Below, in pieces: positions 1,303 to 49,526 of a DNA stretch of 64,000 bases. Under the pieces are notes generated by a model, which saw only the letters and a program-made list of their open reading frames with translations, was not told where the DNA came from and did not search any database. The stretch is from IMG/VR virus record IMGVR_UViG_3300009152_000043, positions 1 to 64,000 of that record; one strand, 5' to 3'. The translations under genes and the position numbers were made by a program. The first letter of the stretch is position 1. Each line of letters starts with the position of its first letter. Source of the DNA: a virus.

Positions 1303-1597
1303 ATACTGTTTGTATTAATTGTTCTTCATCTTCTCTTGATTCCATCTCTGCCACCCACTTTTCTATAGGGCAAGCACAAGATAAACACTTAGTTTTTGCT
1401 GCTAGAGTGCAGCCACAATGGGTACAATGCTTATCAAACCTTCTAGGTTTCTTAGGTCTGTTTTCAGAACACCATTCACAGGCATCACAGATAGCCATAC
1501 GCTGTTGGCTAATTGCTGTAATTTGTTCTTTCATGTCATCAGCTGGGAACAGGTTATTCTTCCAGCCCTCGTAAATCTGAGAGAAGTTGATCTTCAT
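1250..1597 (-). CDS. Cysteine-rich zinc-ribbon protein
   Basis: 115 residues. Residues about 38-80 hold nine cysteines in the clusters CDACEWC, CTHCGC and CLSCAC, the pattern of a small zinc-binding treble-clef or ribbon found in many phage late regions (DUF6171-like). Such proteins may bind nucleic acid or act as assembly or transcription accessories; nothing here decides between these. The start overlaps the upstream HU/IHF gene by 44 bases. The C-terminal tail is acidic and Ser-rich. Confidence 0.7.
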   Translation of the reverse strand: MKINFSQIYEGWKNNLFPADDMKEQITAISQQRMAICDACEWCSENRPKKPRRFDKHCTHCGCTLAAKTKCLSCACPIEKWVAEMESREDEEQLIQTVYGKQGSEDSEDSTGRSN

Positions 1598-1940
1598 ATG
1601 TAATTTTACTTTTTAAAAGATTGATCAGAGCTTCTGTTTTTTCTAGTGTCACCTGAGAGGAACGTTTCTTTTGTTCAGAGGTTTCAGCACTGGCTAGGAA
1701 CTCAAGCATTAGGTTTTTCTTCCTAGTCAAGTCTTCTAGACGTTTCTTAGCTTTCTTCTCATTAAAGTAAAACTTCCCAAACCCAGATATTTCAATACTG
1801 TTATTTGTGTCCATCGCTTCGTTGGCAGATTGAAACTGGTGATTTACCACTGTCTCAATCGTCTTTTCAGAGATCATCATCTTCACAGCAAGGGTCCTAA
1901 CTAGGTAGTCCTTGACAGACATACTTATAGGCTTATCCAT
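1554..1940 (-). CDS. HU/IHF-family DNA-bending protein
   Basis: 128 residues. The N-terminal 75 residues follow the HU/IHF fold: a helical dimerisation part (SVKDYLVRTLAVKMMISEKT), then NSIEISGFGKFYF, which matches the conserved ISGFGxF element at the base of the DNA-binding arms. The remaining 50 residues are charged and helical, an extension beyond the usual 90-100 residues. HU/IHF paralogues are a recurrent feature of crAss-like phages. It would bend DNA for replication, packaging or transcription. It overlaps the winged-helix gene upstream by 8 bases and probably shares its promoter at 2296-2326. Confidence 0.78.
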   Translation of the reverse strand: MDKPISMSVKDYLVRTLAVKMMISEKTIETVVNHQFQSANEAMDTNNSIEISGFGKFYFNEKKAKKRLEDLTRKKNLMLEFLASAETSEQKKRSSQVTLEKTEALINLLKSKITYEDQLLSDLRGLEE

Positions 1941-2283
1941 GTGTTAATGTAATTTGTAGCACTATATCCTTTTCGAAGTTGAGCAGAATGATGGGGTTCA
2001 CCTTCACCTTTGTACCATCCTTCACAAATATCCCCATCTTCTTTAATTTGGAAATAATGTTGTTTATCGCTGGGGACGTACTATTGTACAATTCACAAAA
2101 CTCCTTACGTATGTTAGCATAAGAGATGTTCCCTTTTATAGCAGCAAAGGCTATCAATTGTATTTCCCTCTTTGTAAGCTTCAATTCATTCACAGCTGAC
2201 AATATCTTGTAATACTTCTCAGCCATAGGAATGACATCTTCTATTGAAGTTTTTAGTCGTTGTACAATTGGTTTTGCTTCCAT
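1933..2283 (-). CDS. Winged-helix DNA-binding protein, likely regulator
   Basis: 116 residues. Residues about 38-100 (KLTKREIQLIAFAAIKG..., then SPAINNIISKLKKMGIFVKDG) read as a helix-turn-helix with a wing, of the MarR-like type where the recognition helix is followed by KLKKMGI and a beta hairpin. It is the first gene after a perfect Bacteroidota-type promoter whose -7 box lies only 12 bases before the start codon, so the mRNA leader is very short. An inverted repeat inside that promoter suggests self-regulation. Confidence 0.6.
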   Translation of the reverse strand: MEAKPIVQRLKTSIEDVIPMAEKYYKILSAVNELKLTKREIQLIAFAAIKGNISYANIRKEFCELYNSTSPAINNIISKLKKMGIFVKDGTKVKVNPIILLNFEKDIVLQITLTHG

Positions 2284-2295
2284 AATTAGTTAATA

Positions 2296-2326
2296 CAAAG
2301 ATATGTATATCTGGACGATCTACAAA
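2296..2326 (-). promoter_or_regulatory. Bacteroidota-type promoter with internal inverted repeat
   Basis: Read on the minus strand: TTTG (2326-2323), a 19-base spacer, then TATCTTTG (2303-2296). This is an exact match to TTTG-N19-TAnnTTTG. It drives the winged-helix, HU/IHF, zinc-ribbon and terL operon. The repeat AGATAT-GT-ATATCT at 2299-2312 overlaps the -7 box and could be an operator. Confidence 0.75.
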
Positions 2327-2698: not shown

Positions 2699-2761
2699 TT
2701 TATTTTTGTAAAGCCATCCCTTGACCAAACTTGTTACATATTTATATAAAAAGGTAACAAA

Positions 2762-2777
2762 CGTTCCACGTGGAACA
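2762..2777. promoter_or_regulatory. parS-like ParB-binding palindrome
   Basis: CGTTCCACGTGGAACA matches the bacterial chromosomal parS consensus TGTTnCACGTGnAACA at 15 of 16 positions. Its core GTTCCACGTGGAAC (2763-2776) is a perfect 14-base palindrome. I saw no second copy in the window and no parA or parB gene, so any ParB would come from the host or from outside the window. Confidence 0.6.
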
Positions 2778-2928
2778 TTCCCCTGCTTATAGCCCAAAAT
2801 TTTCCCAGCCCCCCACACCCTTTGTGTCCATGGGAGTGTAGCCTTCTCCATATCACAACCCCCCATACAAATTGGGGGAACGACACATCCCCCCTAATTA
2901 ATTAATTAACAAATTAAAAAACAAACAG

Positions 2929-3312
2929 ATGACAAAAAATTACGTTATCAACAATGGCAGTTTTACTGCAAATGGCAACTTCAGTGGTTACACAGCTTTG
3001 GGCGAGAGAGTCCACATTTTTGGCAGACAGATGGAAGCCTTAAGTTGGAAGAGCAACGCTGACGTAACATTCCCATTCTACGCAATTGGTCAGATGAAGC
3101 AAATCAACCAATTGAATGAGAAGGGCGAGACTATTGGCACAGCTGATAGACTTACAGCTTTGAGTGCATTCAAGTCTCGTGAAGAGATTAAGCAAGCTCA
3201 CGCTGACAGCACATTGCTTGACATTGAAATCCAACAGGAAATCAAAGCACAAGCAAGCAGTGCAGGCTTAACAGAATCTGCAATCAACAGCTTGTTGTCA
3301 GTAGCATTCTAA
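2929..3312 (+). CDS. First early gene; probably highly expressed protein of unknown function
   Basis: 127 residues. The N-terminus is beta-rich (YVINNGSFTANGNFSGYTALGERVHIFG) and the C-terminal half helical and charged. I do not recognise it. Codon use differs from its neighbours, with many C-ending codons (AAC, GAC, TTC, AGC) in an AT-rich genome, the bias expected of a very highly expressed gene. It is a single-gene unit: it follows the divergent region and ends in a strong terminator seven bases after the stop. No host-type promoter is visible before it, which would fit transcription by a virion-carried RNA polymerase. Confidence 0.8.
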   Translation: MTKNYVINNGSFTANGNFSGYTALGERVHIFGRQMEALSWKSNADVTFPFYAIGQMKQINQLNEKGETIGTADRLTALSAFKSREEIKQAHADSTLLDIEIQQEIKAQASSAGLTESAINSLLSVAF

Positions 3313-30440: not shown

Positions 30441-31196
30441 ATGAATCCACTTCCATTTATATCATGTAAGTGCATAACTTATGGAAGAGTTAGTACGCTT
30501 GAGGAGAGTGTTGAATCTTTCCTCAAGCAGGACTATCCTAAGGATAGATGTGAACTCATCATAGTAAATGACTATCCCTTACAAACTCTTATATTTGAGC
30601 ATCCTCAAATCAAGATAGTTAATTTACCTAAAACGTTTGATACAATAGGAGAGAAGGAAAACTATGCTACAGAACTATGTCAAGGAGACATTATATGTCA
30701 ATGGGACGATGATGACGTAGCTCTACCAAACCACTTACAGAATGTAGCTAAGTATATGACAGAAGAAGTTAATATTCTTCATTGGGAGACAGGAGTGTTA
30801 TGTCACATTACAGGTATTGAAAATGTTGGTTGGATAGGTAACTCTGGTATTGTGTTTAGAAAAGCAGCTTGGAAAGCAATAGGGGGACATCCTCTTGAAA
30901 ATGCTGGATATGATATGACGTTTATAGAAACATTACATAAGTATGGAGGTAGACTGTTTGCCAAACCACCCAAAGAAGAAGCTAGCTGGTTCTATATGTG
31001 GGGAGGAAGAGGATATCATATGAGTGGACAAGGTCATGATAAACCTGGAAAACTCAATGCTATTCAAAGACACAGTAATCACATTGAAATGGAAAGAACT
31101 ATGGGAAGAATTCCTACAGGAAATGTTCATCTCAATCCTTATTGGGAAAAAGATTATAAAGAAATGTTACAAAAGAAAATAGATGAAGATAAATAA
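30441..31196 (+). CDS. Family 2-like glycosyltransferase
   Basis: 251 residues, GT-A fold. ISCKCITYGRVSTLEESVESFLKQ is the N-terminal nucleotide-sugar strand, DIICQWDDDDVALP (about residues 86-99) is the DxD metal site. The acceptor is unknown. First of three genes for sugar or methyl transfer that end the early block. Confidence 0.82.
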   Translation: MNPLPFISCKCITYGRVSTLEESVESFLKQDYPKDRCELIIVNDYPLQTLIFEHPQIKIVNLPKTFDTIGEKENYATELCQGDIICQWDDDDVALPNHLQNVAKYMTEEVNILHWETGVLCHITGIENVGWIGNSGIVFRKAAWKAIGGHPLENAGYDMTFIETLHKYGGRLFAKPPKEEASWFYMWGGRGYHMSGQGHDKPGKLNAIQRHSNHIEMERTMGRIPTGNVHLNPYWEKDYKEMLQKKIDEDK

Positions 31197-31836
31197 ACTA
31201 ATTATTGACTCTACAAGTTCTAACACAGAATTGTGTAAACTTGCTGTCAAGTATCCTACAGACAAGTGTCCCTATCATAATAACTCCACTTTACATAGAC
31301 ATGCTTATACGTCTGTGTATAATTTAATATTCTCACACATACGTTATAACAAACTTATAATTGGTGAGGTGGGTATATTAGATAACAACTCAATGTTATG
31401 TTGGAGAGAATATTTTCCTAATGCTTTATTGTTTGGCTATGAATATCACCAAAACAAATTAGACAAAGCAATAAATGACAAGGTTGATAGAGCATCCTAT
31501 ATTCATGTAGACATCACTAGTGAAGAGTCTTTAAAAGCTGTGTTTTCTGAAACCAACTTCTTTGACATCATCATTGAGGATTCAACGCATGTGTTTGAAG
31601 ATCAAATCAGATTTTTAAACATAGCCTATAAGTGTGTTAAACCAGGAGGAACAATTGTTATTGAAGACATCTTCATTAAAGAAGATGAAAACAGATATAT
31701 GGAAGCTATAGATCACATCAAAGAATACTTTTCATCAGCTACATTTGTTTTAGCTAATCATGATTTAAAGTTTTCTCCAGGTTGGGACAATGATAAACTA
31801 TTAATATTACATAGAAACGACAAACCATGTTCTTAA
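31183..31836 (+). CDS. SAM-dependent methyltransferase
   Basis: 217 residues, class I fold. LIIGEVGI is the motif I strand and loop, FFDIIIEDSTHVFEDQ is motif III with an Asp-Ser-Thr-His, and CVKPGGTIVIEDIF is the usual post-fold motif. The 'YPTDKCPYHNNS' start resembles O-methyltransferases of sugar clusters. Overlaps both neighbours by 10-14 bases. Confidence 0.75.
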   Translation: MKINKLIIDSTSSNTELCKLAVKYPTDKCPYHNNSTLHRHAYTSVYNLIFSHIRYNKLIIGEVGILDNNSMLCWREYFPNALLFGYEYHQNKLDKAINDKVDRASYIHVDITSEESLKAVFSETNFFDIIIEDSTHVFEDQIRFLNIAYKCVKPGGTIVIEDIFIKEDENRYMEAIDHIKEYFSSATFVLANHDLKFSPGWDNDKLLILHRNDKPCS

Positions 31837-32360
31837 ACATCATCACTCCTTGTAGTAGACCTCATCTTTTACATAGAATTGCAGAGAGCATTAACATACC
31901 TAAAGAAAATTACAGATGGATTGTTGTGTTTGATTCAGACACTGTTCCTGATAGCATTCCTGAATGCGAAGCCTATTGTATAAAAGATGCAGGTAGTGTA
32001 TGTGGAAATGCTCAAAGAAATTTAGCAATTGATTTAGTAACAGAAGGTTACATCTATTTTAATGACGATGACACTATCATACATCCAGAACTGTGGAACA
32101 ACATTAAAGATTTAACTAATGACTTTATTCATTTTGATCAAGAAGAAAAAGATGGAAGCATTAGATTAAGACAAAGTAAAGTTAGACTAAGCTACATAGA
32201 TAGTCACAACTTCATTGTACATACAACAATAGTAGGTGATGAAAGATTTGTTATACATAGAAGGGATGCAGATGGTGTATTTGCTGAAAACTGTTACAAC
32301 AAATCTAAAACTTCAAACTATATTCCTAAAGTGTTAAGCACTTACAACGCACTTAGATAA
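31827..32360 (+). CDS. Glycosyltransferase-like (GT-A) protein
   Basis: 177 residues, short. MFLNIITPCSRPHLLHRIAESI matches the start of family 2-type enzymes, YIYFNDDDTIIHP is the DxD site, and HTTIVGDERF is a possible acceptor loop. Last early gene before the bidirectional terminator. Confidence 0.7.
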   Translation: MFLNIITPCSRPHLLHRIAESINIPKENYRWIVVFDSDTVPDSIPECEAYCIKDAGSVCGNAQRNLAIDLVTEGYIYFNDDDTIIHPELWNNIKDLTNDFIHFDQEEKDGSIRLRQSKVRLSYIDSHNFIVHTTIVGDERFVIHRRDADGVFAENCYNKSKTSNYIPKVLSTYNALR

Positions 32361-41655: not shown

Positions 41656-42582
41656 ATGAAACCAGTTTGTTTAAATCTGGAAGAATGTAATGGATTGGGT
41701 GACCTAATCTGTGCCACCCCCACTATCAAAAAACTTCATGACTCCTACCAAAGAAAGATTGTTGTTCTCTCTAAAATGCCTGAGCTCTTCAAGATGAATC
41801 CTTATGTAGAAGCTAGCTATAAAGCTGCTTCTGTAGACATGACGTACATACAAAGTAATTACATTGTACATAATTCATTCTATCTAGTGGGTAAGAAAGA
41901 CGAGCGTGGTGTAGAGATGAAGCATAACATGATGGATATCAGGCAGTTCCATGCTATACACCTAGGCTTTATGCTTAGGCAAGATGAAATGGAATGTTTC
42001 TATCAACCTATAGAAGAACCTAATGTTCTTGTAGAGGGTAAATATGCTGTGATACATCCTGTTAACAGCTGGCCTAATAGAACGTGGTCACAGGATAATT
42101 GGTTAAAACTAGTTGATGAATTAAATAAATTGGGATATAAAGTTGTAGCAGTTGGTAAGGACTCTTCTGAGACAGGGTTCTTTAATGTAGATAAACCTGT
42201 ACATGAGATGAATGATAACGTTATCAACCTAATGAATAAGACATCCATCTCTCAAACTTGGCATTTGATTAACAATGCTAACTTGGTCATCACTATGGAC
42301 TCAGGTATTCTACATCTAGCAGGTACAACTAGCACTGATATTATTGAATTAGGATCTCCTATCAATCCAGAGTTTCGCACACCACATAGACAAGAAGGAA
42401 AACATATATACGTAAGAGGAGGATGTGGATTACACTGCAGCTCTAATATGAAATATGCTCTTGAGTATTGGCCTACAATAGATTATGTACAGCCACTAAT
42501 TGGATGCTTAGAAAAGAAAGAAACTTTTGAATGCCATCCATCTGTAGCACAAGTGATACATGCAATTAACAATAACATATGA
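41656..42582 (+). CDS. Heptosyltransferase-like (GT9) glycosyltransferase
   Basis: 308 residues, GT-B. NGLGDLICATPTIKKL at residue 12 is the GT9 start (GDxxxxTP), AVIHPVNSWPNRTWSQDNW matches 'HPGSxxxxKxWPxExW', and ITMDSGILHLAG is the nucleotide-sugar binding segment. GT9 enzymes add heptose or other sugars to LPS or proteins. First gene of a seven-gene operon. Confidence 0.82.
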   Translation: MKPVCLNLEECNGLGDLICATPTIKKLHDSYQRKIVVLSKMPELFKMNPYVEASYKAASVDMTYIQSNYIVHNSFYLVGKKDERGVEMKHNMMDIRQFHAIHLGFMLRQDEMECFYQPIEEPNVLVEGKYAVIHPVNSWPNRTWSQDNWLKLVDELNKLGYKVVAVGKDSSETGFFNVDKPVHEMNDNVINLMNKTSISQTWHLINNANLVITMDSGILHLAGTTSTDIIELGSPINPEFRTPHRQEGKHIYVRGGCGLHCSSNMKYALEYWPTIDYVQPLIGCLEKKETFECHPSVAQVIHAINNNI

Positions 42583-45236
42583 AAAAACTATTAATCATCA
42601 CTCCTCATCTATCAACAGGAGGGGCACCACAGGTAACAGTAAATAAGATAGAGCTTTTACAGAATGATTTTGATATCAAGGTGGTTGAGTGGGACTTGAT
42701 TGCCTGGGCTTTTGTTGTACAAAGAAACAGAATCATAAGACTTGTAGGAGAACAAAACTTCTATTCTCTAGGAGATAACAAGCTTGAGCAACTATCAAGG
42801 ATTGTTGATGAGTTCCAACCAGATACAATATCCATGGAGGAATTTCCTGAGATGTTTATGAACACTGAATGTGCTGACTATCTATATAGCTCAGATAGAA
42901 GCTGGAGAATTGTAGAAACTACACATGATAGCTCATTTAACCCTAGAAGTAAGACAATGTTTCCTGATATGTTTGTGTTTGTTAGTGCATATAATGCATT
43001 CAAATACATACACTTAGATGTTCCTATGAGGATTATTGAATATCCTGTAGACAAAAAGCAACGTAGCAAAATAGATATGCAGAAGAAGTTAGGACTAGAT
43101 CCTAGTTACAAGCATCTCATCACTGTAGGACTATTTACACCTAGAAAGAACCAAGCTTATGCATTTGAATTAGCTGAGCGTTTGAAGAACTATAAGATTA
43201 AGTTCCATTTCTTAGGTAACCAAGCAGGTAACTTTGAATTCTATTGGCAGCCATTGATGCAGAACAAACCAGAGAACTGTGTTGTCTGGGGAGAGCGTGA
43301 TGATGTAACTAATTTCTTAGAAGCATCTGATGTGTTCTTCTTCCCTTCCAAGGGTGATCGTGGTAACAAGGAGTTAAATCCCATTGCTATTAAGGAAGCA
43401 TTACAATACGATGACCTAATCAAACTAATGTACAACCTAGATGTGTATTGTAATAAGTATGATGATGAACCTAACATGGTTTATTTAACTGGAGATCTTA
43501 GTAGTGATGCTACCAATCTAGTAGAAAAATTAAACCTTGATAAGATAGAAGAAGAGTGTATCATCTTGGGCACCTATCCTAATATTAAGGACAGAGTGCA
43601 GTGGACAAAGGATACTATCAATAGTCTTAAACCATTAGGTAGAAAGATTATACTAGTGAGTCACTATCCTGTAGATGCTGATATACAAAGAATGGTGGAT
43701 TATTATATCTATGATGCACACAACCCTCTTACACATCACAGCTACTACACCAGGTTCTATAATGATCAACCAGACTACTTTGCTGAGATAAATATCAATG
43801 GATTGAAGAATAGTAACCAGTCTCTCACTGTCTTGACTAACATGTTCAATGGTGCCAAAGCTGCCAAAGAACTAGGATTCAATAGATTCTTCTACACTAC
43901 ATATGATGTTGTGTTAGACAAAGATGATGTACATGCAGTGAATGCTGCATTTAAGACAGATAAAAAACTTTGTGCAGCTACACTTCCTACACCACAGGGA
44001 TTAGGAATTCAGACTAATGGTATCTTGTTTAATACAGACTTCTTCTTAAAAGAGTTTGATGATGTACGTACACCAGAAGAATGGAATGCTGTATGCACAC
44101 GCAGAAGATGTGAGAACTATCTAGAAGAATATCTATCTAAAGTGATATTTAGTTTCAATCCTAATGACGTACAACTAGTTACTAATGACAAGTCTACTCT
44201 ATTGATTAACAGTGGATTAGGTGTTGCCTCTAATAGTGAGTATTATTCCATCCTTCCTGTTGTTGGAAAACCAAACAATTACATGTTCTATTTCTTTACA
44301 TACAACAGAGACTATAGAAACATCTATGTATCTATTGCAGACTACATGTGGAAAAGAATCATACCAGCCCAGAAGCATGAACTTGCTTATCAGTTTGAAT
44401 TCAAGGGAGAACCTATAGATATAAGAATGGATTTCTATGATGGAGATACTAACTATAAGGTGGAAGAGTTTAAACTAACTAAGGACAACTTACACTTGTA
44501 TGAAAATACAGGTAAGTTTCAATGGAAGAATATCAAACCTAAAATTAAATTAGTTCACATACAAACAACATTAAACGATGAAAGAGAACAAGCAAGTAGA
44601 GCATCCCTTGAGCAAGTCAAAGACCATGGATGGGAATATATCTTACAACTTAATGAGCCCTATAAATCATTACCACCATCATATAACTGCATCAGACCAG
44701 ATTGTGTTTCAATGGAACTCTTCGATGAACCCACAGTGCAAAGGTTGGGCACTGCACTTACCCCAGCACATTATGGATGCTATGAAGCATTCAAGAATGC
44801 CATCCTAACAGAATTCCATGATTGTGACTTCTTAATGGTATGTGAAGGAGATTGTATTATTGAGACAGATATACACAATTTCATACGAAAAGTTGAGGAA
44901 TGTGCACACTTATTGGGACCAAACAACATACACATTATGTCCTTTGGAGATAAAGATACATTAGAACATGGCTGGCCTCAATCTCCTATAATAGAAGAGG
45001 TCAATGATGTAATGTATATTACCAATCACATTATTGGTTTACAATGTATTATGTTCCCAGCTAAGATTGCAAAGGAATTAAAAGACACTGTAAGAATGCA
45101 TCATTGGGATGCTGCAGATATGTATTTTAATCTCATCTTTGCAGGACACAAGATGGGCATTCTACATAACAGAATTACCACCCAAGCAGATGGATTCTCA
45201 TTAATTGATAACTCACATAAAACATTTAGAAAATAA
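42579..45236 (+). CDS. Three-domain glycosyltransferase
   Basis: 885 residues. Residues 1-300: GT4-like GT-B domain (ITPHLSTGGAPQVTVNK; HLITVGLFTPRKNQ; DVFFFPSKGDRGNKELNPIAIKEAL). Residues about 320-650: GT-A-like domain that starts ECIILGTYPNIKDRVQ and resembles the protein at 46453-47448. Residues about 655-885: GT25-like domain with LMVCEGDCII and MHHWDAADMYFN. It could build a di- or trisaccharide on one acceptor. ATGA overlap with the GT9 gene. Confidence 0.75.
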   Translation: MKKLLIITPHLSTGGAPQVTVNKIELLQNDFDIKVVEWDLIAWAFVVQRNRIIRLVGEQNFYSLGDNKLEQLSRIVDEFQPDTISMEEFPEMFMNTECADYLYSSDRSWRIVETTHDSSFNPRSKTMFPDMFVFVSAYNAFKYIHLDVPMRIIEYPVDKKQRSKIDMQKKLGLDPSYKHLITVGLFTPRKNQAYAFELAERLKNYKIKFHFLGNQAGNFEFYWQPLMQNKPENCVVWGERDDVTNFLEASDVFFFPSKGDRGNKELNPIAIKEALQYDDLIKLMYNLDVYCNKYDDEPNMVYLTGDLSSDATNLVEKLNLDKIEEECIILGTYPNIKDRVQWTKDTINSLKPLGRKIILVSHYPVDADIQRMVDYYIYDAHNPLTHHSYYTRFYNDQPDYFAEININGLKNSNQSLTVLTNMFNGAKAAKELGFNRFFYTTYDVVLDKDDVHAVNAAFKTDKKLCAATLPTPQGLGIQTNGILFNTDFFLKEFDDVRTPEEWNAVCTRRRCENYLEEYLSKVIFSFNPNDVQLVTNDKSTLLINSGLGVASNSEYYSILPVVGKPNNYMFYFFTYNRDYRNIYVSIADYMWKRIIPAQKHELAYQFEFKGEPIDIRMDFYDGDTNYKVEEFKLTKDNLHLYENTGKFQWKNIKPKIKLVHIQTTLNDEREQASRASLEQVKDHGWEYILQLNEPYKSLPPSYNCIRPDCVSMELFDEPTVQRLGTALTPAHYGCYEAFKNAILTEFHDCDFLMVCEGDCIIETDIHNFIRKVEECAHLLGPNNIHIMSFGDKDTLEHGWPQSPIIEEVNDVMYITNHIIGLQCIMFPAKIAKELKDTVRMHHWDAADMYFNLIFAGHKMGILHNRITTQADGFSLIDNSHKTFRK

Positions 45237-45787
45237 TGGCACACGAAAATCAACAGAAGTTCTGTCTTAAAGTGAAAGAACTATTCCCTGAGTATTTCAA
45301 GGGAGTGAATGTATGTGATATAGGATCTTTAGATATCAATGGAAGTAATCACTTCCTATTTGAAGACTATTCATACATAGGAATAGATATTGGTAAAGGT
45401 AAAAATGTAAATGTAGTTAGCAAGGGACATTTATACAAGCCTATTGATAATTCTAATTATGATATTGTAATATCTACAGAATGCTTTGAGCACGATATGT
45501 ACTGGAAAGATACTATTACTAATGTTTCTGAGAATCTGTTAAGATCAGAGGGATTATTCTTATTTAGTTGTGCTACAACAGGAAGACATGAACATGGTAC
45601 CAGAAGAACTACACCAGATAACTCTCCTTTCACAGCTGTAGTTACTGATGAGTGGGCTGACTATTATATGAATCTAACAGAAGAGATTATATGCAATGAA
45701 TTAGATCTAACTAAATGGTATAAAATTTATAAGTTTTATACTAATGAAGAAACACATGATTTATATTTTTGGGGAATTAAAAAATAA
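45236..45787 (+). CDS. SAM-dependent methyltransferase
   Basis: 183 residues, type-11 fold. VNVCDIGSLDINGSNH is motif I, YIGIDIGKGKNVN is motif II with the acidic residue, YDIVISTECFEHDMYW is motif III and LLRSEGLFLFSC is the following strand. It may methylate a sugar made by the operon. TAATG overlap with the gene before. Confidence 0.82.
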   Translation: MAHENQQKFCLKVKELFPEYFKGVNVCDIGSLDINGSNHFLFEDYSYIGIDIGKGKNVNVVSKGHLYKPIDNSNYDIVISTECFEHDMYWKDTITNVSENLLRSEGLFLFSCATTGRHEHGTRRTTPDNSPFTAVVTDEWADYYMNLTEEIICNELDLTKWYKIYKFYTNEETHDLYFWGIKK

Positions 45788-45790
45788 TAT

Positions 45791-46465
45791 ATGATAGTAG
45801 ATGTAATAATACTTACAGATAGTACAGATGTAACTATGACACAGCGTACTATAGACACATTACATAATAGTGAGTCAACGTATAGGTTTCGTGTACAACT
45901 TGTAGATTCAGGAAGTAATAATCCAATTAGATATAGAGACTATCATAATTATATACGTCCTGAGAGTTCATTCAATTATAACAAGTTCTTGAATATAGCC
46001 ATTGGTTATTGTACTAGTGATTGGGTAGTTATATCTAATGATGATGTAAGTTATGAAAAGGGTTGGTTCACTGAGATGATAAATGTGCACCAACAAAGAC
46101 CAGACATAGAAGCATTCTCTCCTAGAGATCCATTACTATACATGCGTTACTTCCCTAATCATTTTATAGGAAGTGATGATAGCTATTTTGAATCTTACGC
46201 TGTTACAGAAGCATTACAAGGCTGGTGCACTGTGATTAAGAAAACTGCTCTAGATAAAATCCTACCATTTGATGAACTGTTTGACATGTACTACCAGGAT
46301 AATGACTATGCTGAGAGACTTAAAGAAGCAGGGATTAAACATGCTCTTGTTAGAGATGCTATTGTTTGCCATATGGAAACATTAAATGTACAACAGATAG
46401 GAGAAGCTAAAGCTAAGAAGCTTAAGATTGATGAAATTAAATTCAGAACCAAATGGAACCAGTAG
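45791..46465 (+). CDS. Family 2 glycosyltransferase
   Basis: 224 residues. IILTDSTDVTMTQRTIDTL at the start, WVVISNDDVSYEKGW for the DxD site (about 77-91), and FDMYYQDNDYAERLKEAG, which is the acceptor-binding ED segment of GT2 enzymes. Overlaps the next gene by 13 bases. Confidence 0.82.
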   Translation: MIVDVIILTDSTDVTMTQRTIDTLHNSESTYRFRVQLVDSGSNNPIRYRDYHNYIRPESSFNYNKFLNIAIGYCTSDWVVISNDDVSYEKGWFTEMINVHQQRPDIEAFSPRDPLLYMRYFPNHFIGSDDSYFESYAVTEALQGWCTVIKKTALDKILPFDELFDMYYQDNDYAERLKEAGIKHALVRDAIVCHMETLNVQQIGEAKAKKLKIDEIKFRTKWNQ

Positions 46466-47448
46466 CTATAATAAGTGTCTATCCTTCTAATGATAGAATC
46501 ATAAACATCCTTAACAGATGTATACATACCTATAAGTCAATAGGTTGGGATGTTATAGTTACTAGTCATCTACCACTAGATGAACAGACTACTAAGAATG
46601 CTACATACACTATATATGATAGTGACAATACCTTCTTAAGACATGACCTTTGTCCTGTGTTCTGGAATGAATGTGCTGGTACAAAGATAACCATTCCCAC
46701 CTGTGGACACGTTCTTCCTATATGTAGGAACATAAAGCTTGGTACAACCATGGCTAAAGCTCTTGGCTATACACACTTTGTATTTACAGAAGCTGATGTA
46801 CTATTAGGAGGAGCTGATTTACAACTGTTAGAGTCTTATATAAAAACTCTTGACATTGAGGATAAGAAGATGTTGTTCTTCAGACCTGAAGAGTATAGAG
46901 GAATCAATGGGTCCTATGTATATGAGTCACTAATGTTTGGTGGAAATGTAAACTATTTTGTAGACAATTTCACTCCCCCCCTATCATCAGAAGACTGGAT
47001 AAATTTTAACTTTGGTCATACGTTAGAACTATCTTTCTATGAGAAGCTTTCACACGATGAAGATAAGTTTTTAATAATCAATGACCACAGCTCTAACATA
47101 TTCAAAGCTAGTGAGGTTAATGTATTAAGGTTTGGATTCTTTAACTGTGAGATAGTGCATAACACTCCTGATCCACAGAAGGTTGCGTTGTATATAATGA
47201 ACTATTTAATAGGAGAAGAACAGATTAAATATGTAACTATTTATAAAAATAATACTATCTTTACAAACATAATTCTTCATAAGCATGGATATTGGTTTGC
47301 TGATTTTGATATTGATGATAGTGAAATAGTAGTAGAAGTTTATACAGATGCTAATAAAACTATGTTAGAAACATCTAAGAAGTATGTTTTAAATAAACAA
47401 TTAAAAGATACAGCTCATGAAAGAGGTGTGTTTGAATATATAAACTAA
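46453..47448 (+). CDS. GT-A-like glycosyltransferase, single domain
   Basis: 331 residues. 'AIISVYPSNDRIINILNRCI...WDVIVTSHLP' and 'KALGYTHFVFTEADVLLGG' share order and spacing with the middle domain of the 885-residue enzyme. The middle holds the E-x-D metal site; the C-terminal 100 residues form a strand-rich add-on. No match to a named family. Confidence 0.62.
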   Translation: MEPVAIISVYPSNDRIINILNRCIHTYKSIGWDVIVTSHLPLDEQTTKNATYTIYDSDNTFLRHDLCPVFWNECAGTKITIPTCGHVLPICRNIKLGTTMAKALGYTHFVFTEADVLLGGADLQLLESYIKTLDIEDKKMLFFRPEEYRGINGSYVYESLMFGGNVNYFVDNFTPPLSSEDWINFNFGHTLELSFYEKLSHDEDKFLIINDHSSNIFKASEVNVLRFGFFNCEIVHNTPDPQKVALYIMNYLIGEEQIKYVTIYKNNTIFTNIILHKHGYWFADFDIDDSEIVVEVYTDANKTMLETSKKYVLNKQLKDTAHERGVFEYIN

Positions 47449-47452
47449 CAAT

Positions 47453-48460
47453 ATGAATATTATTCAAGTGGCTACAGGATTAATAACCATCCCACCAAAT
47501 GGCTGGGGTGCTGTAGAACGTATCATATGGGAATACAAACAAGAGCTAGAAGCTTTAGGTGACACTGTACATATTAAATATACAAATGAGTTAGAGAAAA
47601 TACCTAACACTATTACACATGCTCACATGGCTAACCAAGCATTACATTGTAAAAGCTTAGGCATACCATACATCTATTCTCTACATGACCATCATGTTGA
47701 ATGGTATGGTAAAGATAGCTGGGTGTACAAACAAAACCTAGAAGCTATCAAAGGAAGTGTTATATCTATCACTCACACAGAGCATTATCTAGATTACTTT
47801 GACACTACAGATAAGTTGTTCTATCTAAGACATGGTGCTAATATAGAATTCTTTACACCAGACTATTCTCCTAAAACACATAGCCTATTGATGTTAGCAA
47901 ACAATGGCTTAGCTGGTAACGCAGGGTATGATAGAAAAGGATTTAGATATGGTATAGAAGCAGCTGAAAGAATGGACCTACCTATTACTATAGCTGGTCA
48001 TACAGATAATCAAAACTTCTTTGATATACATACAGAACTAACCGCCTATAAAAAGTTAACTTTAAAGTTAACAAATCCTACAGACGAAGAGATTAAAGAG
48101 CTCTACCAAAACCACACTATATTCTTACATCCATCCATGCTAGAAGGAGGACATCCAAATCTAACATTGTGTGAGGCTATAGCTAGTGGACTTCCTATTG
48201 TAGGAACTTATAAAGGATCTACACCTGTTCCAGGGATGCATGTCATAGATGACATTACAACAGAAGCTGTAACAGATGGTATAGTGAATGTAATACATAG
48301 CTATGACAAGCGTAGAGAAGAGATATTTGCTGCAAGAGAACAGTTTAGCTGGAGACACGTAGCTAAGACATTGCATAAGTATTATGAGAATGTCCTAAAG
48401 GTGGATGAGAAATATGATTCAGATAGAACAAAACAATTATACATAGAAACTTATGCTTAA
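47453..48460 (+). CDS. GT4 glycosyltransferase
   Basis: 335 residues, GT-B. PPNGWGAVERIIWEYKQELE is the acceptor-binding start, and HPSMLEGGHPNLTLCEAIAS (about 224-243) is the donor-binding E-x7-E motif. Acts on an unknown acceptor. Confidence 0.85.
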   Translation: MNIIQVATGLITIPPNGWGAVERIIWEYKQELEALGDTVHIKYTNELEKIPNTITHAHMANQALHCKSLGIPYIYSLHDHHVEWYGKDSWVYKQNLEAIKGSVISITHTEHYLDYFDTTDKLFYLRHGANIEFFTPDYSPKTHSLLMLANNGLAGNAGYDRKGFRYGIEAAERMDLPITIAGHTDNQNFFDIHTELTAYKKLTLKLTNPTDEEIKELYQNHTIFLHPSMLEGGHPNLTLCEAIASGLPIVGTYKGSTPVPGMHVIDDITTEAVTDGIVNVIHSYDKRREEIFAAREQFSWRHVAKTLHKYYENVLKVDEKYDSDRTKQLYIETYA

Positions 48461-49526
48461 ATATAATTTAAACTTAGTCAATGGAATGTTCTTTGAGCTA
48501 TTAAGCACATGGGAGAACAAAGAGTATCTTGTGAAATTTATGGAGAAGAAGGGCAAAGAATACATAGAAATGTATTCTGTAATGCTTAAGAAGGGTATGT
48601 GGGCTAAACATCCTAGAACCTATCTAGCTAAATACTTTATAGAAATATGGGATGGAGAGGTTCTTAAAGAGAAGATAAGCGTGTTAGACTATATCAAGGG
48701 TAAGCGTGTATTGATATCCTTTGAGTCTCATTCATTAGGAGATAGCATTGCTTGGATGCCATACTGTTTAGAGTTTAAAAACATCTATCAGTGTGATGTG
48801 GTTGTGTCTACATTTAAAAACTTCTTGTTTGAAAAGGCATATCCAGAACTTCAGTTTATAGATAGAGGTGTGGTTGTTAACAATATTGTAGCACAGTTTG
48901 AATATGGTTGGTATTGGGATGTTAATAAAGAACCTGAACATCCAGCTACAATTCCTTTACAAAAGACAGCTAGCAACACATTGAATCTTCCTTATAAAGA
49001 ACTTCCATGTAGAATAGACTTTACACCAGGAGAAAGACCTGTAACAGATAAATACATTTGTATATCCACACAATCTACATCACAATGTAAACATTGGTAT
49101 TATTGGGATGAGTTGATTTCTTATTATAAAGAAAAAGGATATAGCGTGTTTGAGATGTCTAAAGAAGCAGGAGACTATGGAGCAGAGAAACTTGAGGACA
49201 CAAGCCTTAATAATGTAATGAACTATCTACATCATGCAGACTTATACATAGGACTGTCTAGTGGTATAAGTTGGTTGAACTGGGCTATAGGTAAACATAC
49301 AGTGATGATTAGTAATTTCACTAATGAAGACCATGAGTTTGTTTCTAACTGCACACGTATAGTTAAGAAGGATGTATGTAATGGATGTTGGAACAATCCA
49401 CTGTTTAAATTTAACAAAGGAGATTGGAATTGGTGTCCTGTAAATGAAGATAGCCCTAAACATTTTGAATGTCATAAGGTTATCACTTCTAAAGACGTTA
49501 TTGAACAGATTAGTAACTTATTATAA
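48453..49526 (+). CDS. Autotransporter heptosyltransferase-like enzyme with four-Cys finger
   Basis: 357 residues. The C-terminal part runs SWLNWAIGKHTVMISNF and then CNGC, followed after 15 residues by C and 14 later by C (CNGCWN...WNWCPV...HFECHK). This C-x2-C-x15-C-x14-C matches the iron-finger of BAHT/TibC-type enzymes that add heptose to Ser residues of autotransporter adhesins. GT9-like strands (GLSSGISWLNWA) precede it. Its 3' end overlaps the end of a convergent adhesin gene by 17 bases. Sugar and acceptor are not shown by sequence. Confidence 0.72.
   Translation: MLKYNLNLVNGMFFELLSTWENKEYLVKFMEKKGKEYIEMYSVMLKKGMWAKHPRTYLAKYFIEIWDGEVLKEKISVLDYIKGKRVLISFESHSLGDSIAWMPYCLEFKNIYQCDVVVSTFKNFLFEKAYPELQFIDRGVVVNNIVAQFEYGWYWDVNKEPEHPATIPLQKTASNTLNLPYKELPCRIDFTPGERPVTDKYICISTQSTSQCKHWYYWDELISYYKEKGYSVFEMSKEAGDYGAEKLEDTSLNNVMNYLHHADLYIGLSSGISWLNWAIGKHTVMISNFTNEDHEFVSNCTRIVKKDVCNGCWNNPLFKFNKGDWNWCPVNEDSPKHFECHKVITSKDVIEQISNLL

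Follow-up and report, generated by a model that had tools for sequence, protein, structure and literature searches.

Mimicry of a foreign parS by a mobile element is exemplified by SGI1, whose parS-like sites hijack ParB of IncC plasmids: the stolen sites parasitise the plasmid-borne protein and raise the element's own stability, and the plasmid is expelled (PMC10954446). Extrachromosomal prophages (mycobacteriophages, PMC7157519; P1) also are phage genomes with a centromere-like site, and they possess ParA, ParB and parS of their own. An effect of ParB on transcription is described as well, since ParB of Pseudomonas aeruginosa bound near parS damps neighbouring promoters of the chromosome (PMC5521831). 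For crAss001, long-term carriage is linked mainly to phase variation of the capsule and delayed lysis, while a carrier state or episomal pseudolysogeny was proposed without a mechanism (PMC8375218). In the literature searched, which covered few subscription journals, no report was found of a virus having the chromosomal parS of its host without parAB. The phage site described here resembles the sites of SGI1 in that a mobile element would again imitate parS of another replicon, except that the system exploited would be the chromosomal one of the host; binding and stability were demonstrated for SGI1 (PMC10954446) and are predicted for the phage site. Like the extrachromosomal prophages, this phage carries a centromere-like site, but no ParB was found in it, and a damping of its promoters by ParB would be an extrapolation from the chromosomal case.

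The analysed DNA, hereafter the window, comprises 64,000 nucleotides of the 68,573-base record IMGVR_UViG_3300009152_000043, a virus contig, in agreement with its assignment to a phage by the earlier note. It encodes DNA polymerase, UvsX-like recombinase, ribonucleotide reductase, rIIA/rIIB-like and tail proteins, PhoH and many glycosyltransferases. Blocks of glycosyltransferase and methyltransferase genes lie at 41656–49526 and 30441–32360 and perhaps modify phage DNA or the cell surface. No DNA match to the first 8 kb of the window was detected among 50,697 named phages. The features relevant to the palindrome are as follows.

1554–1940, minus strand: HU/IHF-type DNA-binding protein (PF00216), assigned by Pfam
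1933–2283, minus strand: winged-HTH-like protein of 116 aa, flanking the hub and used as marker gene for collecting relatives
2296–2303, minus strand: Bacteroidota-type -7 box TATCTTTG (TAnnTTTG) for the HTH gene transcribed leftward, assigned by sequence
2611–2928, no strand: divergent intergenic hub containing the palindrome, free of ORFs reaching 80 aa and with the same layout in relatives
2731–2760, plus strand: inverted repeat TTGTTAC (2731–2737) / GTAACAA (2754–2760), assigned by sequence
2762–2777, no strand: parS-like palindrome CGTTCCACGTGGAACA, assigned by sequence, scarcity and conservation among relatives
2832–2895, plus strand: conserved leader block (GGGAG...TAC/GCC...CCCC...GGGGG...CCCC) located 5' of the first rightward gene
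2929–3312, plus strand: first rightward gene past the hub, 127 aa, no assigned family, swapped for other genes in many relatives

The perfect 14-bp palindrome GTTCCACGTGGAAC occupies positions 2763–2776 inside CGTTCCACGTGGAACA. Within three mismatches of TGTTCCACGTGGAACA the site at 2762–2777 is the sole match in the window, deviating in position 1 only, while the shuffled window gave on average 0.19 matches; in the whole record it is likewise the only match to TGTTYCACGTGRAACA at up to two mismatches. For the strict 14-mer GTTYCACGTGRAAC, 0.00056 copies per window are expected by chance at the window's base composition. The agreement with 15 of 16 parS positions stated in the earlier note is true relative to TGTTCCACGTGGAACA, a form common in Bacteroidota chromosomes, and comes to 13 of 16 for the textbook parS TGTTTCACGTGAAACA. 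The site was also rightly described as a single copy residing in an intergenic hub: neither the window nor the 68.6 kb record contains a second parS-like match, and the palindrome is situated between divergent gene sets, the last leftward start codon being at 2610 and the rightward gene beginning at 2929.

Immediately to the left of the palindrome the TTGTTAC/GTAACAA inverted repeat surrounds TATAAA (2745–2750), which together with TTGACC (2721–2726) makes up a putative sigma70-like promoter, and hairpins and TTGAC repeats similar to those of the window's hub were observed in relatives. Arrays of the GTAAAGCTATNNCTTGAC repeat are seen left of the palindrome in the window (2711–2760) and in hubs of relatives (e.g., L131, L133, L139, L141, and L150), along with hairpin-like inverted repeats (TGCATGAA..TTCATGCA, TTTGGCA..TGCCAAA, and TTGTTAC..GTAACAA) on the same side; both could represent replication-origin iterons or promoters. 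In L353, at about 10.5 kb (the G013 equivalent is at about 86.8 kb), the hub is the point where GC skew switches sign and where the cumulative skew over that piece is lowest; a replication origin would have this effect, but so would divergent transcription by itself. Unusually many contigs, about 15 of 88 and those of 104 and 114 kb included, start less than 1 kb from the hub near the HTH gene (L133, L135, L143, L149, L155, L175, L197, L202, L210, and others); the end of the genome, the point where packaging starts or a break in the assembly may be the reason.

On the other side of the palindrome, the distance to the leader is commonly about 59–70 nt, ranging from about 29 to 174. The leader block GGGAGRGGAGGNTACTTCC...AACCCCTCC...TTGGGGGTATCCCCC precedes quite different first genes in most relatives and is possibly an element of translation or transcription control; neither the leader nor the hub-containing loci of five relatives gave an Rfam match at the gathering threshold, covariation sought in the leader was not found, and the stability of its fold is not unusual (z -1.46). 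A search of PHROGs and Pfam with the HTH, 82-aa, 127-aa and 190-aa neighbours of the hub assigned no family to the HTH or the 127-aa protein.

The comparison with chromosomes was based on 99 Bacteroidota genomes, 96 of which contain GTTYCAYRTGRAAC sites, mostly from two to nine each and clustered among the matches listed, while the same pattern read backwards is nearly absent from them. In 15 genomes chosen from exact 16-mer matches, the sites are mainly GTTCCACGTGGAAC and the heterosite GTTCCACGTGAAAC. The three genomes that were opened have these sites on either side of mnmG/gidA, recognized by its N-terminal motif; mnmG is a neighbour of oriC in many bacteria. A site with the CATGTG core takes the mnmG-flanking position in two of these three chromosomes, and in a further genome one lies 1,957 bp from a canonical site. 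Around 116 chromosomal parS loci, single mismatches to TGTTYCACGTGRAACA were confined to folded positions 1 (42 of 47) and 8 (5 of 47), and the core of secondary sites was ACGT in 69 cases and ATGT/ACAT in five. Judged by its letters, the window site falls within the chromosomal type of Bacteroidota parS, i.e., TGTTYCACGTGRAACA with tolerance at position 1. It shares with the parS of chromosomal ParABS (ParB/Spo0J type) the 14–16-bp word, the favoured GTTCC...GGAAC form and the tolerance at positions 1, 5, and 8; it differs in being usually single and placed in a divergent hub rather than clustered by mnmG, and in belonging to a genome where no ParB was found.

Using the 116-aa HTH gene, some 88 related viral contigs were collected, and their hubs contain the palindrome as TGTTCCACGTGGAACA, CGTTCCACGTGGAACA, GGTTCCACGTGAAACA, CGTTTCACGTGAAACT, GGTTCCATGTGGAACT, CGTTCCATATGGAACT, and other forms. 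After deduplication, 31 of 55 relatives have some form of it (12 strict, nine with a variant YR core, and 10 drifted), while 24, among them several contigs exceeding 100 kb that have none anywhere, lack a recognisable site near the hub. Most variants of the phage site differ at positions 1, 8 or the Y/R position 5, and most genomes hold a single site. On the HTH tree the strict sites occur in scattered places, and well-supported branches force at least seven changes. For ten strict hub sites the median identity is 1.0 over the site and 0.27 and 0.30 over the 60-nt flanks, as for unrelated DNA; since these sites were picked for strictness, their complete identity is partly a matter of selection, and the informative part is the randomness of the flanks. 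Conservation of the palindrome where flanking DNA has diverged, suggested by the earlier note as a check on its proposal, is therefore observed: the word recurs in the same divergent hub amid random-like flanks, and the lack of conservation that would have spoken against the idea is not what the relatives display. On the scale of 74 contigs (4.38 Mb), a few of them near-identical to each other, 24 strict matches were counted against about 0.04 expected.

The pattern is not uniform. Within the clade to which the window belongs, some members keep the arms GTTCC/GGAAC around a core that, by drift, now reads TTGT, TTAT, CCAT or ATAT, and one has a 5-bp spacer between the kept arms; such cores and spacers are hardly ever seen among chromosomal parS sites and might reflect a host ParB that differs, some other binder or a hairpin. 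The hub of L151 is devoid of the site, which is found once beyond the first gene, as is the only site of L188. In the hubs of L147 and L216 an ORF-bearing insertion, endonuclease-like by eye, separates the HTH gene from the palindrome, and despite it the palindrome of L147 precedes the leader by about 60 bp.

G013, a relative of 116 kb, has six perfect sites against 0.001 expected. Its hub accounts for one, which lies past an insertion and some 60 bp ahead of the leader; two fall into the next intergenic stretch, and three reside in reading frames. In a conserved 418-aa gene (67922–69178) the nearest relatives have GATGTGGTTAAAGGAACAGG (VVKGTG), whereas G013 has GATGTTTCACGTGGAACAGG (VSRGTG): seven changes within nine nucleotides relative to the nearest relative produced a 16/16 match, placing R where 11 other orthologs keep K. 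In the rIIB-like gene of G013 the site falls in a variable linker, and twelve relatives have no such sequence there. Creation of a site inside a conserved gene counts against a promoter operator, for which such gains would be unexpected; they could be accounted for if a sliding clamp loads at the site. A coding site of G021, GGTTCCACGTGAAACT, was given little weight, because PGFHxK is encoded there in relatives as well, and this protein constraint makes the site half expected.

The whole record gave no match to the ParB families PF02195 and TIGR00180, and about 27 ORFs of the window compared with Pfam yielded neither ParA nor ParB, in line with the earlier observation that par genes are missing from the window. 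Among relatives, TIGR00180 was found in none of 14 contigs and PF02195 above the cut-off in none of 24, with three sub-threshold ParB_N matches. These weak matches (G002:69269–69478, G010:75460–75669, and G018:41462–41668) are all among rightward early genes, and the two proteins opened, of about 240–270 aa, are matched in the N-terminal domain only. For the contigs searched, phage ParB was accordingly discarded as the binder, as was the HTH protein, whose presence does not follow the site. With no phage ParB found and an HTH protein that does not track the palindrome, the simplest candidate for its recognition is ParB of the host.

Which bacteria serve as hosts was approached from the phage genomes. 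The 116-kb relative has TerL and portal proteins matching phage head families. Its TerL is 34% identical to that of Cellulophaga phages phi17:2/phi4:1, 26–27% to that of Crassvirales and, at best, 40% to that of the Leptolyngbya phage Lbo-JY46, which also provided the sole tblastn match for the capsid protein. The lineage is related to Crassvirales, probably as a sister lineage. With these TerL identities, "crAss-like" in the earlier note was a fair hint as to relationship, and placement in a named crAss family did not follow. In each of 87 relatives, the 60 nt preceding the HTH gene of the hub contain a TAnnTTTG -7 box, the background being 0.064 per 60 nt, and for this reason the host phylum is taken to be Bacteroidota; TerL relatives are mostly phages of Bacteroidota, too. 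Among 84,980 bacterial genomes searched with a view to finding the host, none had a relative of the HTH gene. The nearest named relative by TerL and capsid, PP438436.1 (L356), has the cyanobacterium Leptolyngbya boryana as its recorded host, and no such palindrome was found in the Lbo-JY46 record. Either this lineage has a wide range of hosts or the host given in the record should be looked at again, and this host name calls for caution in assigning the phages to Bacteroidota.

Several other explanations of the palindrome were considered. Binding of host ParB might have been selected for its transcriptional effect, the protein serving, close to where the rightward leader begins, as a roadblock or as a silencer at long range and thus pausing or timing infection. 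The position between divergent promoters, often about 59–70 bp before the conserved leader, fits this option; the sigma70-like TTGACC-18-TATAAA of the window would put the site just past the transcription start, and there are precedents in repression of promoters adjoining parS3/parS4 by P. aeruginosa ParB (PMC5521831) and in long-range silencing by the ParB-family protein KorB (PMC11790492). At least three of the six G013 sites, however, are in reading frames away from promoters, one of them newly created there, and in L151 and L188 the site is beyond the first gene rather than in the hub, and a primarily transcriptional role is held to be unlikely, though it is the main rival to segregation. 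We consider it less probable still that the palindrome is an operator of a phage regulator, such as the adjacent winged-HTH or HU-like protein, resembling parS by coincidence. An operator would suit the location in the hub, the fixed spacing from the leader, the dyad symmetry and, in one clade, the drift of the core between conserved arms. On the contrary, the word and its tolerated variants are those of host parS, perfect sites arise inside genes, and most genomes have one site although an operator should recur at several promoters of the phage. The HTH protein, with its near-invariant core, is conserved both with and without the palindrome, which is why the latter is probably not its operator.

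The symmetry of the word admits one more reading, a hairpin with the GTTCC/GGAAC stem and a loop of four to five nucleotides, formed in leader RNA or in single-stranded DNA as a hairpin promoter. Pairing of the arms is feasible (-6.2 kcal/mol for a short piece of the window), and some relatives keep them around the loops ACGT, ATAT, TTGT, CCAT or ATAAT. Yet the heterosites GTTCC...GAAAC and GTTCC...GAAAA, encountered in several clades (L142, L154, L204, and L207), break an inner pair of the stem, chromosomal parS exhibits the same independent C/T variation of each arm, all sites outside the hub retain the ACGT core, and the folded leader is unexceptional in stability, which leaves the hairpin improbable. 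Loss or degradation of the site in several relatives is what one might anticipate for a chance match or a functionless fossil of host DNA, but the 24 strict matches observed, the conservation amid random flanks and the de novo gain make this option extremely improbable for the window and have already refuted it for the clade as a whole.

We favour, as the probable explanation, that in this palindrome the virus has copied host parS, which serves it as a borrowed centromere. This reading draws on the identity of the word and its tolerated variants with Bacteroidota parS, on its persistence amid random flanks, on the de novo gain in coding sequence and on the lack of an above-cut-off ParB in the contigs tested; counted against it are the 24 of 55 relatives without a site near the hub, the drifted cores with kept arms in part of the window's clade and the frequent distance of about 60 bp from the leader, as would be typical of a promoter element. 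Thus, from the earlier proposal of a host-type parS tying the phage to ParB, the word, its conservation and the missing phage ParB have stood up, while binding, spreading, segregation or other benefit and silencing, as well as the host phylum, are what we infer. That host ParB binds the palindrome appears likely: as a CTP-loaded clamp it would recognise the site, load there and slide onto adjacent phage DNA, so that an incoming or episomal genome would join the partition apparatus of the host without ParB of its own. The benefit would most likely be segregational, with phage DNA tethered and shared out together with the nucleoid or origin region in slow or carrier-state infection, and damping of hub transcription may be a side effect or a second use; that tethering and segregation are the function under selection has about even chances.

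The suggestion that the site explains long-term carriage of crAss-like phages does not hold in general, because 13 named crAss-like or related phages contain no GTTYC-N4-GRAAC with the CACGTG core. A narrower generalisation, plausible though held tentatively, is that apparently non-integrating crAss-related phages of Bacteroidota keep and repeatedly re-evolve host-type parS, also inside genes, and, with no ParB of their own, are partitioned by host ParB as passengers of the chromosome. If true, parasitism on parS, known from SGI1 on IncC plasmids, would extend to chromosomal ParB and to viruses, with bearing on the persistence of phages without integration or lysogeny genes in dividing Bacteroidota populations; a conserved centromere site of the host, present six-fold and inside genes in one phage, would offer for it a concrete mechanism that needs just one short sequence.
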